Source of the DNA: Aeoliella mucimassa
Lineage (GTDB): Bacteria; Planctomycetota; Planctomycetia; Pirellulales; Lacipirellulaceae
Direction: 5' to 3'
Length of the DNA: 64,000 nt
NCBI RefSeq assembly: GCF_007748035.1
Contig: NZ_CP036278.1
Coordinates: 5,022,001 to 5,086,000 of the forward strand
Below the pieces are notes generated by a model. The model did no database searches. It saw only the letters and a program-made list of their open reading frames with translations, and was not told the origin of the DNA. Shown piece after piece: positions 13,001-48,723 of the stretch. Both the position numbers and the translations under genes were made by a program. Numbering within the stretch: position 1 is the stretch's first letter; each line of letters begins with the position of its first letter.

Positions 13001-16000
13001 TTACTTCTTCAGCTTCTCGAGCGCTAGCTTGATGCTGTCGAGTTGCTTTTGGGCGTCGGCCAGTTTGTCGCGCTCGGCCTTTACCACTTCGGCCGGAGCG
13101 TTGGCAACGAACTTCTCGTTGCTGAGTTTGCCGTTGAGCGAACCAATGTACTTGGTCAGCTTCGTTTCTTCGGACTCGAGCCGCTTGGTCTCGGCTTCGA
13201 CGTCGATGTACTGGCTCACGTCCACATGCACTTCGATGCCAACCAGATCGCCCGCGAGCGGGATGCTCGCGGCGATGTCCGGCGCGGTGACCTTGGGGCT
13301 TAGCTCCGTCGCCGTGGCGTTGGCCATCTTGGCAAAATAGGGCTGCATCGCGTCAAGTCGCTCAGCGACTTGCGGCGGACAGTTCACTCGGAACTCCAGC
13401 GAGTCCTTCATGTTGATATTCTGCCGACTACGAATCTCGCGAACCGCGCCGAGCACTGCTTGGAACTCGGCGAACTGGGCTTCGATGTCGTGATCGACCC
13501 AACCCCGCATATCCCGGAACTCGGGCCAGGTGGCAATGCAAACGCTCTCTTCGGCCGCGGCCGGGGTCGGCACACCACGTTCGGGGCAAACCTTACCTAG
13601 CAAGCTCCAGATTTCTTCGGTCAAGAAAGGAACCATCGGATGCAGCAAACGCACGAGCGTGTCGAGCGCGTAAGCCAGCACTCGCTGGGCCGTGGGGCGT
13701 TGCTCGGGCACATCGAAGCGGGCCTTGGCCATCTCGATGTAGAAGCTGCAGAACTCGTCCCAGGCAAAGTCGTACAGCGTCCGCGCGGCGTCGGCGTAGC
13801 GGTACGTGTTCAGCGCGTGCGAGGTCTGCCGGGTGACGGTCGCCAGCCGCGACAGCAGCCAGCGATCCTCGAGCAGAAGATCGGCATCGGTCACCTTGCC
13901 AGGCGTGTAATCTTCGAGATTCGTCAGCGAGAACCGCGCGGCGTTCCACAGTTTGTTGCAGAAGTTGCGGCCCAGCTCGAAGCGGTCGCTCACCACCGCC
14001 CCGCGTTTGAGAGCAAGGTCCTCGTCGCTTTCGGCCCACTGCGTGCTGAACGACTCTCCACACTTATCGCACTTGATCGCAGGAAGCACACGATTTTTCT
14101 TGGTCTGCTTGATCAGCGCATCGCAGTGCGGGCACTCGAACTCCACCGGCATGCGAACGTCTTGCGTCTCGGTGGTGAGGTACGCAATACCAAACCGCAA
14201 GGCGTCGGCCCCGAACTTCTGGATCACGTCCAGCGGGTCGATACCGTTTCCCTTCGACTTGCTCATGGTCTCGCCAAAGCCGTCGAGGATCTTGGGGTGA
14301 ATGTAGACTTCGTGGAACGGCACCTCGCCCATGTTGTACTCACCCATCAGCACCATGCGGGCGACCCACAGCGTAATGATGTCGCGCGAGGTAATCAGCG
14401 TGGTGGTCGGGTAGAACGCATGCAACTCGTCGGTCTCTTCGGGCCAACCCAGCGTCGAGTGCGGCCAGAGGGCGGAGCTGAACCAAGTGTCAAGGACTTC
14501 TTCGTCTTGCTTCCAAAGTCCCATTGCTTCAAGTTCACCAATAATTTCAGGGTCATCATCTCTTACACACAACATTTCAAAACTATAGCGAGGATCCAAA
14601 ACCTCAGCTTCTTGTTGTGCAGAACTCAATCCTTCAGTTCTTCCCCGATTTATAACTGCAACTCTTCCTTCCTCTTTCCAGTGTTCAATCTTATCTTCGA
14701 TTACCTCGTCTCTGGCCAAGAGCTCTTCCTGCGTATAACCACTGGGATCAGGCTGAGTCAAAGTCCACACTGGAATCCGATGGCCCCACCACAACTGGCG
14801 CCCAACCGGCCAGTCGCGTTTTTCGCTCAGCCAGTCGAGGTAGGTCTTTCCGTACCGCTCGGGGACGATCTTCACCTTGCCGTTGGTCACGGCGTCCATC
14901 GCGGTCTGCGCCAGCTCGTCCATCTTCACGAACCACTGGTCGGCCAGGTAAGGCTCGATCGGGGTCTTCGAGCGGTCGCTGTGCGCCAGGTCTATCTCGC
15001 GGTCTTCGCGATCGGTCTCGGGATCGTGCAGGCCCAGCTCCGTAAGGTCGTCGACAACCGCTTCGCGGGCCTTCTTCATGGTGAGGCCGCGGTACTTCTC
15101 GGGCACGCTATCGTTCAGGGTGCCATCGGGGTTGAGGATGTTGATCGCGCCGATCTCAAGATTGCGTTGCCAGACGTCGTAGTCGTTCGCGTCGTGCGCG
15201 GGGGTGATCTTCACGCAGCCAGAGCCGAGTTCTGGCTTCGCCCAGATGTCGGCGACCAGCGGAATGGTACGCCCGGTGAGCGGCAATTCGAGCTGCACTC
15301 CACGGAGGGCCATATCGCGAAGGGTTTCGAGCTGCTTGAGCTTGGTTTGTTTGCGCTCGGCCAGGGCTTCGAGCTGGGCCTCGATGGGAGCCTTCTCTTT
15401 GGCAGGGGCCGCGGCCAGTTTCTCCTGCAGTTCGGCCTCGACCTTGGCGAGTTGCTTCGCCGGGTCGGGATGCACCGCCACCGCGGTGTCGCCCAGCATG
15501 GTTTCGGGCCGGGTGGTGGCGATCGTCACGTGGGTCGGCTCGCCGGGCTTGGGATCGATGACCGGATAACGGAAGTGCCAGAAGTGCCCCTTCACGGCTT
15601 CGTGGAACACTTCGTCGTCCGACACGGCGGTCTGCAGGTAGGTATCCCAATTCACCAGCCGCTTGCCGCGATAGATTTTGTCATCGCGAAACAGCTTGAA
15701 GAATGTTTCGCGAACCGCGCGGGCGCAGGTATCGTCGAGCGTAAAGCGGGTTCGCTCCCAGTCGCAGCTGCAACCGAGTTGCTTGAGCTGGCCAAGAATG
15801 CGGGCTTCGTACTGATCTTTCCATTGCCAGATGCGGTCGACCAGTCCCTCGCGGCCGAGGTCGTGCCGCGACTTGCCTTCGGTCTCGAGCAGTCGCTTCT
15901 CGACGCGGGCCTGGGTGGCAATGCCGGCGTGGTCGGTGCCGGGCATCCACAAGGTGTTGTATCCCTGCATCCGCTTCATGCGAATCAAAATATCCTGCAG

Positions 16001-16195
16001 CGTATTGTTAAGCGCGTGCCCCAGGTGCAGGGCCCCCGTGACGTTCGGCGGAGGGATGACCACCGTGTAAGGCGGCTTGCCATCGGGAACTTGCGACAGC
16101 TTGGGATCGGCGTGGAAATACCCCTTTTCTTCCCAGAATGGGTACCATTTTTCCTGGGCGGCGGCGTGATCGTACTGCGAGGGCAGGGATTTCAT
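13001..16195 (-). CDS. valS: Valine--tRNA ligase
   Basis: A class I synthetase charging tRNA-Val. The start is taken at ATG 16195 (MKSLPSQYDHAAAQEKWYPF), where similarity to the family begins; the preceding 38 codons look untranslated. Signatures are PPNVTGALHLGHAL (HIGH class), the editing CP1 domain, ETMSKSKGNGIDPLD (KMSKS) and a C-terminal coiled coil. At 1064 residues it is longer than the E. coli enzyme (about 950). Extra segments are a charged helix inside the editing region (KVEAELQEKLAAAPAKEK), a zinc-ribbon-like insertion after KMSKS (CPHCDAL and CDKCGESF) and an insertion before DTWFSSALW. The last has a distinct AT-rich composition (about 14,530-14,757). Confidence 0.95.
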   Translation of the reverse strand: MKSLPSQYDHAAAQEKWYPFWEEKGYFHADPKLSQVPDGKPPYTVVIPPPNVTGALHLGHALNNTLQDILIRMKRMQGYNTLWMPGTDHAGIATQARVEKRLLETEGKSRHDLGREGLVDRIWQWKDQYEARILGQLKQLGCSCDWERTRFTLDDTCARAVRETFFKLFRDDKIYRGKRLVNWDTYLQTAVSDDEVFHEAVKGHFWHFRYPVIDPKPGEPTHVTIATTRPETMLGDTAVAVHPDPAKQLAKVEAELQEKLAAAPAKEKAPIEAQLEALAERKQTKLKQLETLRDMALRGVQLELPLTGRTIPLVADIWAKPELGSGCVKITPAHDANDYDVWQRNLEIGAINILNPDGTLNDSVPEKYRGLTMKKAREAVVDDLTELGLHDPETDREDREIDLAHSDRSKTPIEPYLADQWFVKMDELAQTAMDAVTNGKVKIVPERYGKTYLDWLSEKRDWPVGRQLWWGHRIPVWTLTQPDPSGYTQEELLARDEVIEDKIEHWKEEGRVAVINRGRTEGLSSAQQEAEVLDPRYSFEMLCVRDDDPEIIGELEAMGLWKQDEEVLDTWFSSALWPHSTLGWPEETDELHAFYPTTTLITSRDIITLWVARMVLMGEYNMGEVPFHEVYIHPKILDGFGETMSKSKGNGIDPLDVIQKFGADALRFGIAYLTTETQDVRMPVEFECPHCDALIKQTKKNRVLPAIKCDKCGESFSTQWAESDEDLALKRGAVVSDRFELGRNFCNKLWNAARFSLTNLEDYTPGKVTDADLLLEDRWLLSRLATVTRQTSHALNTYRYADAARTLYDFAWDEFCSFYIEMAKARFDVPEQRPTAQRVLAYALDTLVRLLHPMVPFLTEEIWSLLGKVCPERGVPTPAAAEESVCIATWPEFRDMRGWVDHDIEAQFAEFQAVLGAVREIRSRQNINMKDSLEFRVNCPPQVAERLDAMQPYFAKMANATATELSPKVTAPDIAASIPLAGDLVGIEVHVDVSQYIDVEAETKRLESEETKLTKYIGSLNGKLSNEKFVANAPAEVVKAERDKLADAQKQLDSIKLALEKLKK

Positions 16196-16517: not shown

Positions 16518-16760
16518 CTACTGCCAGATTTCCGGCTCGACACGACGCTGATCTCCTATCGCCTTCAGAACTTCAGGTTCCAGCGGAACACCCGGAAAAA
16601 TGTCGGCGAGTTCTCCGGCCACCGGGGCTGATGGTTTGGACGATAGCCCACGTGTCAGTGCTTCGAGCAGCACGACATTTACCGACTTCGACTCCTCTCG
16701 CGCCCGCTCCTGAATGGCGGCGTCGAGGGAATCGTTCACGTTATGTATGGTGTAATCCAT
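16518..16760 (-). CDS. VapB/FitA-like ribbon-helix-helix antitoxin
   Basis: This 80-residue protein has an N-terminal beta-strand and RHH core (DYTIHNVNDSLDAAIQERAR, then EESKSVNVVLLEAL), the DNA-binding fold of FitA/VapB antitoxins. An acidic, Pro-rich tail follows that would normally wrap the toxin. It appears full-length although its toxin partner downstream is truncated. It may persist as an orphan repressor of its own promoter. Confidence 0.75.
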   Translation of the reverse strand: MDYTIHNVNDSLDAAIQERAREESKSVNVVLLEALTRGLSSKPSAPVAGELADIFPGVPLEPEVLKAIGDQRRVEPEIWQ

Positions 16761-16816: not shown

Positions 16817-18385
16817 CTACGCCATTTTCCCCTCGTCTTTGCAAAGCTTGTATTCGATGCTGTCGACCAGGGCGTCCCAGCTGGCTTGAATGACGTTTTC
16901 GTCCACCCCGACGGTGCCCCAGACTTCGCCATCGGCATCGCGGCTTTCGATCACCACCCGCACGCTGGCCGCGGTGGCTGCCTCGCTGTTGATGACCCGC
17001 ACTTTATAATCGACCAGTTGCATGCCCCGCAGGTTCGGGAACGAACCGTTCAGGGCTTTTCGCAGTGCCGCGTCGAGCGCGTTCACGGGACCATCGCCTT
17101 CGGCCACTTCGTGTCGCACCTGGTCGTCGACCAGCAGTTTCACCGTGGCCTCGGTCACCGGCTGGCCTCCTCGGCTTTCGACCGACGTGTGGAACTTCAC
17201 CAATTCGAAGTGAGGAGCATAGGTGCCCGAGATGCGTTTGACGAGCAAATCGAACGAAGCGCCGGCCGATTCGAACTGGTAGCCCGCATTCTCCTTGTCG
17301 ACCACTTCGCGCAAGATGCGATCCATCAGCGCCTTGTCTTCGTCGATATCGTGTTTGGTAGTCATGGCGATGATGTTCGACCGCCCCGACAACTCGCTCA
17401 CCAGCACCCGACGCTCGTTGCCGACCGTCTCGGGGGCGATGTGCTCGTAGCTCTCGGCGACTCGGTTGACCGCGTGAACGTGCATGCCACCTTTGTGAGC
17501 GAACGCGCTCGAGCCGACAAACGGCTGGTTGATGCGGTAGCTCATGTTGGCGATTTCGTACACGTAGCGCGACAGCTCGGTAAGGTGATCGAGCTCGCCC
17601 TGCTCGAGCACTTCGTAGCCTTGTTTCTTGAGGGCCAGATTAGCGACCACCGAAATCAGATCGGCGTTGCCGCACCGTTCGCCCAGGCCGTTGATGGTGC
17701 CTTGCACGTGGATCGCGCCGGCGTCGATCGCGGCCAGCGAATTGGCCACGGCCAGTTCACAGTCGTTGTGCGTATGAATGCCGAGCGGCTTATCGACCTT
17801 CGCGGCCGCCTCGCCGGCGATGCGGGCGACTTCTTCCGGCATGGTCCCCCCGTTGGTGTCGCACATCACGATACGCATCGCCCCGGCCGAAGCAGCCGCA
17901 GCGATCGTCTTCGCGGCGTACTCCGCGTTGGCTTTCCAGCCGTCGAAAAAGTGCTCGGCATCATAAATCACCTCTCGGCCCTGCTGCACGAAATACTCGA
18001 CCGTCTCGGCGATCATGTCGATGTTTTCCTGCTCCGACACCCGCAGCACTTCTTTCACGTGAAAGTCGCTGGTCTTGCCGACGATGGTGATCACCGGAGC
18101 TTGCGACTCCATGAGTGCTTTCATGCCGGGGTCGTCGGCCGGCTTCACCCCCCTGCGACGGGTCATGCCGAACGCGCAGACCTTGCTGTGCTTAAGGGGC
18201 TCGGCCACCATGCGCTGGAAGAATTCGGCATCCTTCGGATTCGAAAGCGGGTATCCCCCTTCGATGAAGTCGAATCCCATCTCGTCCAACCGCCGGGCGA
18301 TGAGCACTTTGTCTTCCAGCGAGAAATTAACACCCTCACCTTGGGCGCCGTCGCGAAGCGTCGTGTCGTAGATTTCGATGTGCAT
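16817..18385 (-). CDS. cimA: (R)-citramalate synthase
   Basis: Condenses pyruvate and acetyl-CoA to citramalate, the first step of the threonine-independent isoleucine route. The N-terminus (IEIYDTTLRDGAQGEGVNFS) and the HxH-type metal motif (GIHTHNDCELAVANSLAAI) belong to the DRE-TIM metallolyases. GTINGLGERCGNADLISV and the C-terminal LeuA-dimer regulatory domain (residues about 385-515) follow. The 522-residue length and the N-terminal signature match the CimA (TIGR00977) group more than LeuA. No Shine-Dalgarno sequence precedes the ATG at 18385. An isoleucine-rich leader peptide and terminator lie 130-275 bases upstream, indicating attenuation by isoleucyl-tRNA supply. Confidence 0.9.
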   Translation of the reverse strand: MHIEIYDTTLRDGAQGEGVNFSLEDKVLIARRLDEMGFDFIEGGYPLSNPKDAEFFQRMVAEPLKHSKVCAFGMTRRRGVKPADDPGMKALMESQAPVITIVGKTSDFHVKEVLRVSEQENIDMIAETVEYFVQQGREVIYDAEHFFDGWKANAEYAAKTIAAAASAGAMRIVMCDTNGGTMPEEVARIAGEAAAKVDKPLGIHTHNDCELAVANSLAAIDAGAIHVQGTINGLGERCGNADLISVVANLALKKQGYEVLEQGELDHLTELSRYVYEIANMSYRINQPFVGSSAFAHKGGMHVHAVNRVAESYEHIAPETVGNERRVLVSELSGRSNIIAMTTKHDIDEDKALMDRILREVVDKENAGYQFESAGASFDLLVKRISGTYAPHFELVKFHTSVESRGGQPVTEATVKLLVDDQVRHEVAEGDGPVNALDAALRKALNGSFPNLRGMQLVDYKVRVINSEAATAASVRVVIESRDADGEVWGTVGVDENVIQASWDALVDSIEYKLCKDEGKMA

Positions 18386-18516
18386 GGGGAGGATTCAGGG
18401 GTCGGGGGACAGGGGTCAGGGAGTAGTGATCCGGGTTTCGAGCCTTTGCCTCATTGGCTATCAGCTTGTTTTCGTCAAACGCAGTGCCAGCTTCTTACGT
18501 CGACCGGCGAGTCCAC

Positions 18517-18548
18517 AAAAAAACCCCGAGGCTTGTGGCCTCAGGGTT
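18517..18548 (-). terminator. Attenuator terminator upstream of cimA
   Basis: On the minus strand AACCCTGAGGC pairs with GCCTCGGGGTT around a 5-base loop, followed by seven T residues. It lies about 130 bases before the cimA start with no gene ending nearby, so it is a leader terminator. Its 5' arm (CCCTGAG) can alternatively pair with CTTAGGG, which overlaps the stop codon of the leader peptide. That would be a competing antiterminator. Confidence 0.85.
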
Positions 18549-18577
18549 GGGATTGTACCGGGTTTTGCCGTACCGCC

Positions 18578-18658
18578 CTAAGACCGCCGTGGGTTGCCAA
18601 TAATAATTCGACCGCGAATCGCAGTGGGCCGATCGGTTATTTGGCGGACTTGGGTCAT
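18578..18658 (-). CDS. cimA leader peptide, 26 residues, isoleucine-rich
   Basis: A short frame starting ATG at 18658 and ending TAG at 18578-18580. The peptide begins MTQVRQI and has Ile at positions 7, 14 and 18-20. The last three are consecutive ATT codons (18,599-18,607), and the end is GNPRRS. It is too short for ordinary gene calling. Its position before a terminator and an isoleucine-pathway gene, and its Ile codon run, are those of a transcription-attenuation leader. No strong Shine-Dalgarno site is seen. Confidence 0.75.
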   Translation of the reverse strand: MTQVRQITDRPTAIRGRIIIGNPRRS

Positions 18659-18775
18659 GGGAGTTTCTCGCGGGAAACGGCTGGTAAGCCCTCAAGTGTA
18701 CTACCGGATGCAGGAGAATCAAGCCGAGGCAAGCCGCAAACCACCGAGCGATGGCTCGCAGGCGCGACGGATCGA

Positions 18776-19705
18776 CTACTCGTCCTCGGCGGTTTCTTCC
18801 TCGTTTTCGTGGCTAAACTCGTAATCGGGGTTATCGCGATCAAAGTCCTCGTCGGTGAGTCCAACATTCAGCTTTACGTCGGTGTAGATGTACTCTTCGA
18901 GCAGGCGAGGCGGACCTCCCTCTTCGCGAGGCCAATAGTAAGCCGCGTAACCGACCGGCAATTTGTCTTCGTCATCCACGAACACCATCGCACGGTAAAA
19001 GGTAAAGTGATCACGCTTAACCGGATGAATCACCTCGATGCGAGTGCACTTACGATCGCCGACCTTGGCCCCTTCGAAGTACTTTACTTCGCATTCATCG
19101 TATTGAATGTCGTTTTCGATCACCTCGACGAGTCGCTCGATCATGCGCTTGAAACCGATGTCGGTAATTGGGTACCGGTTCTCCCTCATCGCCAACGGGC
19201 TGTCGGGCTTGATGTAGGTGCTCATGTACGACATCCGCTGCCCGCCGCGGCGAACAAACACCTTGCCGGCATGCTCGCCTTCGACGTACAGCGCTTCGCG
19301 ACCTTCGACCGACGCAGGCTTTTCAAATCGCAGATACACGCTGAACGGCACGTCGGTCTCGTCGCTCTGCTGCGGGTGACGGACCTTGGCACGCATGAAC
19401 TCATAGCTACGCAGTTGGCCTTCGATCCGCTCGCGACGAACGATATTGCAGGTGTAATCTTGCACGTTTTCGTTGATCGACTGCAGCGACTCTTCGGCCA
19501 ACTTGAGCGCCGGATAGAGCGGGTGTTTTTGCCGCTCGGTCCTGGGCTCGGTAAGGGGAGTCACGTACGAAGCCAGCTTTTCGGCGTGCTCTTCTTTTGC
19601 TTCCTCCTCTTGAGCGAGGAGCGAAGAGCTAGAAGCCAAGGCCAACATGGCCGCGAATGTAGCGAATGTTCTGAGTAGCATTATCTTATGGGTGCGCAAT
19701 ACCAT
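18776..19705 (-). CDS. DUF1571 family exported protein
   Basis: The start at 19705 is chosen because TAGGAG lies about seven bases before this ATG; an earlier in-frame start at 19786 lacks one. The product (309 residues) has a signal peptide (MLLRTFATFAAMLALASSSS, then LLAQ). It continues into the DUF1571 domain: YTCNIVRRERIEG, FSVYLRFEKP, ALYVEGEHAGKVFVRRGG and GYAAYYWP. These proteins are frequent in planctomycetes and resemble outer-membrane lipoprotein-sorting folds. Function is unknown. The C-terminus is very acidic (DYEFSHENEEETAEDE). Confidence 0.75.
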   Translation of the reverse strand: MVLRTHKIMLLRTFATFAAMLALASSSSLLAQEEEAKEEHAEKLASYVTPLTEPRTERQKHPLYPALKLAEESLQSINENVQDYTCNIVRRERIEGQLRSYEFMRAKVRHPQQSDETDVPFSVYLRFEKPASVEGREALYVEGEHAGKVFVRRGGQRMSYMSTYIKPDSPLAMRENRYPITDIGFKRMIERLVEVIENDIQYDECEVKYFEGAKVGDRKCTRIEVIHPVKRDHFTFYRAMVFVDDEDKLPVGYAAYYWPREEGGPPRLLEEYIYTDVKLNVGLTDEDFDRDNPDYEFSHENEEETAEDE

Positions 19706-48630: not shown

Positions 48631-48637
48631 AAACCAG

Positions 48638-48723
48638 TAGCCGAGGCGGGACTCGAACCCGCACGCCCATTTCTGGACACTGGATTTTAAGTCCAGAGCG
48701 TCTGCCAATTCCGCCACTCGGCC
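48638..48723 (-). tRNA. tRNA-Leu (UAA anticodon)
   Basis: An 86-base class II tRNA. On the minus strand the acceptor GGCCGAG pairs with CTCGGCT, followed by discriminator A. The anticodon loop is CTTAAAA (anticodon TAA) in the stem CTGGA/TCCAG. The variable arm is GTCCA-GAAA-TGGGC, and the T stem is GCGGG/CCCGC. CCA is not encoded. Its 3' half was supplied by the integrated island; the displaced native copy is at 37,471-37,525. Confidence 0.93.

Follow-up and report, generated by a model that had tools for sequence, protein, structure and literature searches.

Comparative sequence analysis points to an isoleucine attenuator of cimA, with leucine and aromatic counterparts, in Planctomycetia

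The window, the whole 64,000-nucleotide stretch of the Aeoliella mucimassa genome that was analyzed, contains a leader ORF, an intrinsic terminator, the citramalate synthase gene cimA, and the valyl-tRNA synthetase gene valS, which follow one another on the minus strand (Table 1). Upstream of the leader, a same-strand gene for a DUF1571 protein ends at 18776. The gap from the leader stop codon to the terminator hairpin is 29 nt, and that from the hairpin to cimA is 136 nt. Runs of CTGACCCCTGTCCCCCGACCCCTGA lie immediately before cimA (18385-18430), and GACCCCTGA-type runs are likewise found in two relatives (L003 and L083). In this genome, an 80-amino-acid ORF without a Pfam match (16518-16760, minus) lies between cimA and valS.

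Table 1. Coordinates of features at the cimA locus (positions in the window) and of two further predicted attenuators in the same genome
Feature	Coordinates	Strand	Remarks
Putative sigma-70-type promoter	18695-18722	minus	TTGATT (18722-18717), 16 nt, TACACT (18700-18695); 8/12 consensus, weak
Leader ORF	18658-18578	minus	26 codons, ATG...TAG; encodes MTQVRQITDRPTAIRGRIIIGNPRRS; Ile-rich leaders conserved in relatives
Regulatory codons 18-20	18607-18599	minus	ATT ATT ATT (Ile)
Segment 2, antiterminator 5' arm	18585-18576	minus	GGTCTTAGGG; contains the leader stop codon
Segment 3, common arm	18546-18537	minus	CCCTGAGGCC; antiterminator with segment 2 or terminator with segment 4
Intrinsic terminator hairpin (segments 3 and 4)	18548-18522	minus	AACCCTGAGGC-CACAA-GCCTCGGGGTT; 11 pairs
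T7 tract of the terminator	18523-18517	minus	2 T inside the stem
cimA, citramalate synthase (predicted controlled gene)	16817-18385	minus	TIGR00977, 657 bits, cut-off 450
valS, valyl-tRNA synthetase	13001-16195	minus	identified by eye from sequence
Predicted Leu attenuator before leuA	own genome C1:1743153-1743250 (L166)	plus	leader MDTKTLLSLALLLLLAPSTP
Predicted aromatic attenuator before DAHP synthase	own genome C1:1617056-1617163 (L167)	minus	YWRFFWFSF leader; frame ending MQRNYWRFFWFSFTRPGSGDGGCA

The initial annotation, made from the sequence of this stretch alone, had proposed a 26-codon leader with Ile codons at positions 7 and 14 and an ATT run at 18 to 20, followed by a strong terminator ending in T7 upstream of cimA. 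All of these elements were found in the sequence. The leader ATG is the sole start codon in its frame downstream of the preceding stop, codon 7 is ATA and codon 14 is ATT, and the 11-pair hairpin and its T tract are followed by the TIGR00977 match. The proposed pairing of TCTTAGGG with CCCTGAGG, which includes the leader stop codon, is also present, but its length is 10 bp and not the 8 bp first given; over these 10 bp, GGTCTTAGGG pairs with CCCTGAGGCC, which serves as the terminator's 5' arm. The energetically best duplex in this genome starts 16 nt past the first base of the last Ile codon. Static folding gave −28.7 for the terminator versus −15.3 for the antiterminator, the latter before segment 4 exists. 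Because the static fold favors the terminator, switching must be kinetic.

We examined 120 cimA upstream regions from genome contigs and relatives (including Lacipirellula, Bythopirellula, Botrimarina, and Adhaeretor) with an agnostic detector, which calls a terminator with a preceding short ORF in which one residue occurs 3 or more times within 6 codons. An Ile leader with a terminator was found in 70 of the 120 regions, and this combination was absent from 360 dinucleotide-preserving shuffles, 194 tiles of the window, and 120 antisense regions. The next amino acid was Val (32 regions); at a stricter threshold of 4 in 6, Ile was called in 31 regions and Arg in 8. The leaders of relatives have a median length of 28 codons, with the run usually ending 5 to 9 codons ahead of the stop and the stop a median of 30 nt ahead of the hairpin, and their peptides vary widely outside the regulatory run. 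Ile codon usage (ATT:ATC:ATA) was 267:105:9 in the leaders versus 393:1080:33 in the cimA genes, with ATT favored in the leaders (odds ratio, 7). Slower wobble decoding or the avoidance of structure is a possible reason for this preference.

Across 57 aligned relatives, 93.8% of the cells in the terminator stem held standard pairs, and compensatory change was seen at 8 of 11 pairs. The Ile run and the terminator are conserved in relatives; the initial annotation had named a lack of such conservation as grounds for rejecting its reading. The antiterminator was paired in 78.6% of cells in the alignment columns, with modest covariation. MAFFT columns misplace some antiterminator arms, and pairing was therefore redone sequence by sequence. 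With each sequence taken on its own, the segment most complementary to the terminator arm overlapped the stop codon of the leader in 46 of 63 cases. Pairing of each arm with its own terminator averaged −15.0 kcal/mol versus −13.2 kcal/mol with permuted partners, and none of 2,000 permutations was as low, a difference to which kinship may contribute in part. In one group the arms have changed jointly, with CCCTCAGGTC and GACCTTGAGG replacing CCCTGAGGCC and GGCCTTAGGG. Both alternative helices are upheld across relatives, which supports the attenuator reading of the cimA leader. Some ribosome-mediated attenuators have a 1:2 protector hairpin, which forms if the leader goes untranslated. Such a hairpin is predicted at the window locus, and its conservation is weak: 95% of shuffles were surpassed by 9 of the 63 leaders (mean, −17.4 versus −16.3 kcal/mol).

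An alternative pair of terminator and antiterminator before an amino acid gene would also be expected of a metabolite riboswitch or a T-box, to which the ORF would be incidental. We consider this exceedingly improbable. Apart from the ORF run, the arm, and the terminator, the relatives showed no conserved domain. A search of the whole window against Rfam 15 at gathering scores returned only a tRNA-Leu (anticodon TAA, 48637-48723), the sole tRNA gene in the window, and a search of the cimA, leuA, and DAHP synthase leader loci at E values up to 0.5 found nothing relevant and no match to the T-box covariance model.

The putative promoter ahead of the leader in this genome is weak (Table 1); at the corresponding place, relatives carry TTGACA-17-TATNNT. 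Promoter-like sites were defined as those agreeing with TTGACA-16/18-TATAAT at 9 or more of 12 positions. Of 58 sequences, 41 had one in the 110 nt preceding the leader, compared with 2.6 expected from shuffles. The interval between the terminator and cimA contained such a site in 1 of 47 sequences, with 1.0 expected. Since promoter-like sites occur upstream of the leader and not between the terminator and cimA, transcription in the relatives very probably starts before the leader. A start downstream of the leader, which the initial annotation had named as an argument against its own reading, is not what these sequences suggest.

A covariance model of the leader gave full-length matches in the sense orientation at 55 of 80 and 19 of 29 cimA loci, two sets that share some genomes and include the 57 sequences from which the model was built. 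About one-third of the related cimA loci had no match in the sequence searched, including one from a genome of the same genus (L004/L085), and from the many missing matches loss appears to be frequent. In a sample of class-mates, mostly from another family with some from the same order, Ile leaders were found at 15 of 20 cimA genes. For other planctomycete classes, a first sample yielded Ile leaders at none of 30 cimA loci and a further sample at 4 of 20 (e.g., MNSRIASIIIISNHTKR and MNIQNIIISIIINIGGD). Outside class Planctomycetia, L348, L353, and L354 each carry an isolated Ile leader before cimA, which may reflect common descent or convergence.

The gene order around the attenuator was compared across relatives. 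valS adjoins cimA in 81 of 109 loci, and several of the remainder are contigs that end early; valS may be transcribed with cimA by read-through and hence also be under the attenuator. At four loci (L003:2057, L006:2116, L083:1089, and L095), a 23S_rRNA_IVP-type gene, for which the PF05635 assignment was tested on the L095 copy, lies between the attenuator and cimA, and the attenuator is displaced about 500 nt upstream. At L014:411-506, a strong attenuator match precedes cimA by about 2 kb, and a 648-amino-acid membrane/TPR-like ORF lies between the two; the attenuator may act on a longer operon there. PF00585, the regulatory domain of biosynthetic threonine deaminase, was absent in 22 of 23 genomes, including that of A. 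mucimassa, a count that covers only deaminases with PF00585. This absence is consistent with cimA as the entry to isoleucine made from citramalate.

Beyond what the initial annotation had described, we found parallel Leu (leuA) and aromatic (DAHP synthase) attenuators predicted in the same genome, and the arrangement seen at cimA to be spread through class Planctomycetia. On the A. mucimassa genome, the leader covariance model scored 69.8 bits at cimA, 44.4 bits at leuA, and 39.9 bits at DAHP synthase. Matches at or below 31.5 bits were inspected and showed no convincing amino acid leader. The leuA and DAHP synthase leaders share the layout of the cimA leader and differ in their regulatory codons and targets. 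The arms of the cimA and leuA attenuators are near-identical (CCTTAGGG and AACCCTGAGG), and their terminators are nearly alike. Among relatives, leuA has a Leu leader upstream in 27 of 30, and DAHP synthase a Phe/Tyr/Trp leader in 29 of 30. Consistent leaders were not found before ilvB (22 genomes), trpE (21 genomes), argC (23 genomes), or hisG (24 loci). An unbiased scan over 1.6 Mb of this genome, with 248 terminator-like sites, also recovered the leuA and DAHP synthase leaders; the rest were chance-like frames. An Ile-rich short ORF (at least 3 Ile in 6 codons) stood at 1 of the 248 sites and looks unrelated. At C1:3136257, a terminator is preceded by a Val-rich frame that was judged to be due to chance, as it overlaps, in a different reading frame, the apparent 3' end of an upstream gene and no biosynthesis gene lies downstream.

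At all three operons the identity of the codons corresponds to the end product of the pathway: Ile at cimA, Leu at leuA, and aromatic residues at DAHP synthase. Such leaders, fitting their genes, are not what would be expected if the cimA hairpin were a plain terminator of the upstream DUF1571 gene and the short ORF had arisen by chance. The same-strand gene ending at 18776 does need some terminator, but an Ile frame at near-fixed spacing in 70 of 120 regions, an antiterminator arm that has been maintained, and promoter-like sites just upstream of the leader in relatives all argue against this explanation, which we regard as highly improbable.

The position of the antiterminator arm relative to the regulatory codons is similar in the three leaders. 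In cimA leaders the arm begins a median of 14 nt (interquartile range, 11 to 17) past the first base of the last Ile codon. The corresponding medians to the arm start, counted from the last regulatory codon, are 13 nt for leuA and 11 nt for DAHP synthase. At 11 to 14 nt, the arm starts about where the front of a ribosome would be expected if that codon occupied its A site. The DAHP synthase leader differs from the cimA leader in that its stop codon lies far past the arm (median, 36 nt away), and the distance of the arm from the aromatic run is nonetheless unchanged. Thus, the antiterminator arm tracks the regulatory codons and not the stop, a geometry not easily accounted for unless a stalled ribosome is the sensor. 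A ribosome might also stall because the nascent peptide arrests it, or because a free small molecule is sensed in place of Ile-tRNA charging; TnaC is a precedent for a leader that stalls ribosomes through its peptide sequence. Either mechanism is nonetheless very unlikely here, given that leader peptides diverge widely beyond the regulatory run, that the run fits the pathway end product in three operons, and that the position of the arm follows the regulatory codons.

It is very likely, judging from the sequences, that cimA is under ribosome-mediated transcription attenuation. We infer that the leader is translated, that ribosomes stall on it, and that readthrough responds to isoleucine. Transcription would start a few tens of nucleotides ahead of the leader. 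With ample Ile-tRNA, a ribosome trailing RNA polymerase would move past the ATT codons to the stop and mask segment 2, so that segments 3 and 4 would pair and transcription would terminate at the T tract. When Ile-tRNA is scarce, the ribosome would stall on codons 18 to 20 with its leading edge just before segment 2; the free segment 2 would then take up the nascent segment 3, and the polymerase would read into cimA and perhaps valS. Comparative genomics could hardly provide stronger sequence evidence for this attenuator; the isoleucine response is what we infer from it. Classical ribosome-mediated attenuation of three committed synthases in class Planctomycetia is the best explanation of the data.

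The kind of regulation proposed here is already known and, for Proteobacteria, is textbook material. Proteobacterial leuL, ilvL, and ilvB leaders are leader-peptide attenuators of Leu and Ilv synthesis. They resemble the cimA leader in having a leader peptide rich in the end product, an arm common to terminator and antiterminator, and control of branched-chain synthesis. In contrast to them, the attenuator described here precedes cimA (the citramalate route), occurs in another phylum, has no Rfam match, and shows no clearly conserved 1:2 protector hairpin. The Corynebacterium ilvB-II uORF, which the two papers on it report only from that genus, likewise combines I/L/V codons with a terminator stem and a complementary antiterminator upstream of a branched-chain gene, but its codons are mixed, whereas the run here is dominated by Ile, and the gene and phylum are different (PMC10272879; PMC11109978). 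Actinobacterial attenuators were also discovered by comparative genomics, through conserved leaders and terminators before biosynthesis genes, although in Actinobacteria (PMC1262725). Leader-peptide attenuation has been placed in Proteobacteria, Actinobacteria, and Firmicutes (PMC2965389; PMC1262725; PMC10272879); Naville and Gautheret (2010) wrote that, to their knowledge, no case beyond Proteobacteria and Actinobacteria had been demonstrated prior to their additions from Firmicutes (PMC2965389). In the part of a leader-gene survey drawn on here, Planctomycetes are mentioned only for short leader-gene spacing (PMC4833913). We found no description of amino acid attenuators in Planctomycetes in the literature searched, and an earlier mention may exist, for example in the review of Lopatovskaya (2010). 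What is notable is the phylum, the set of Ile, Leu, and aromatic leaders, and the implication for coupling.

Planctomycetia, together with scattered members of other classes, probably possess an attenuation regulon comprising cimA, leuA, and DAHP synthase, built on one interchangeable layout of arm and terminator. Attenuators of this type need a ribosome close behind RNA polymerase, so the three genes would need to be translated while they are transcribed. For Gemmata obscuriglobus, a spatial separation of transcription and translation has been suggested (Gottshall 2014, cited in PMC5394234); the attenuator described here comes from Pirellulales, and it would serve as a natural in vivo probe of how transcription and translation are coupled in the phylum. 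The regulon would place three pathway-committing synthases under common control across much of class Planctomycetia, and it would give the citramalate route to isoleucine in planctomycetes a regulatory input that can be tested.
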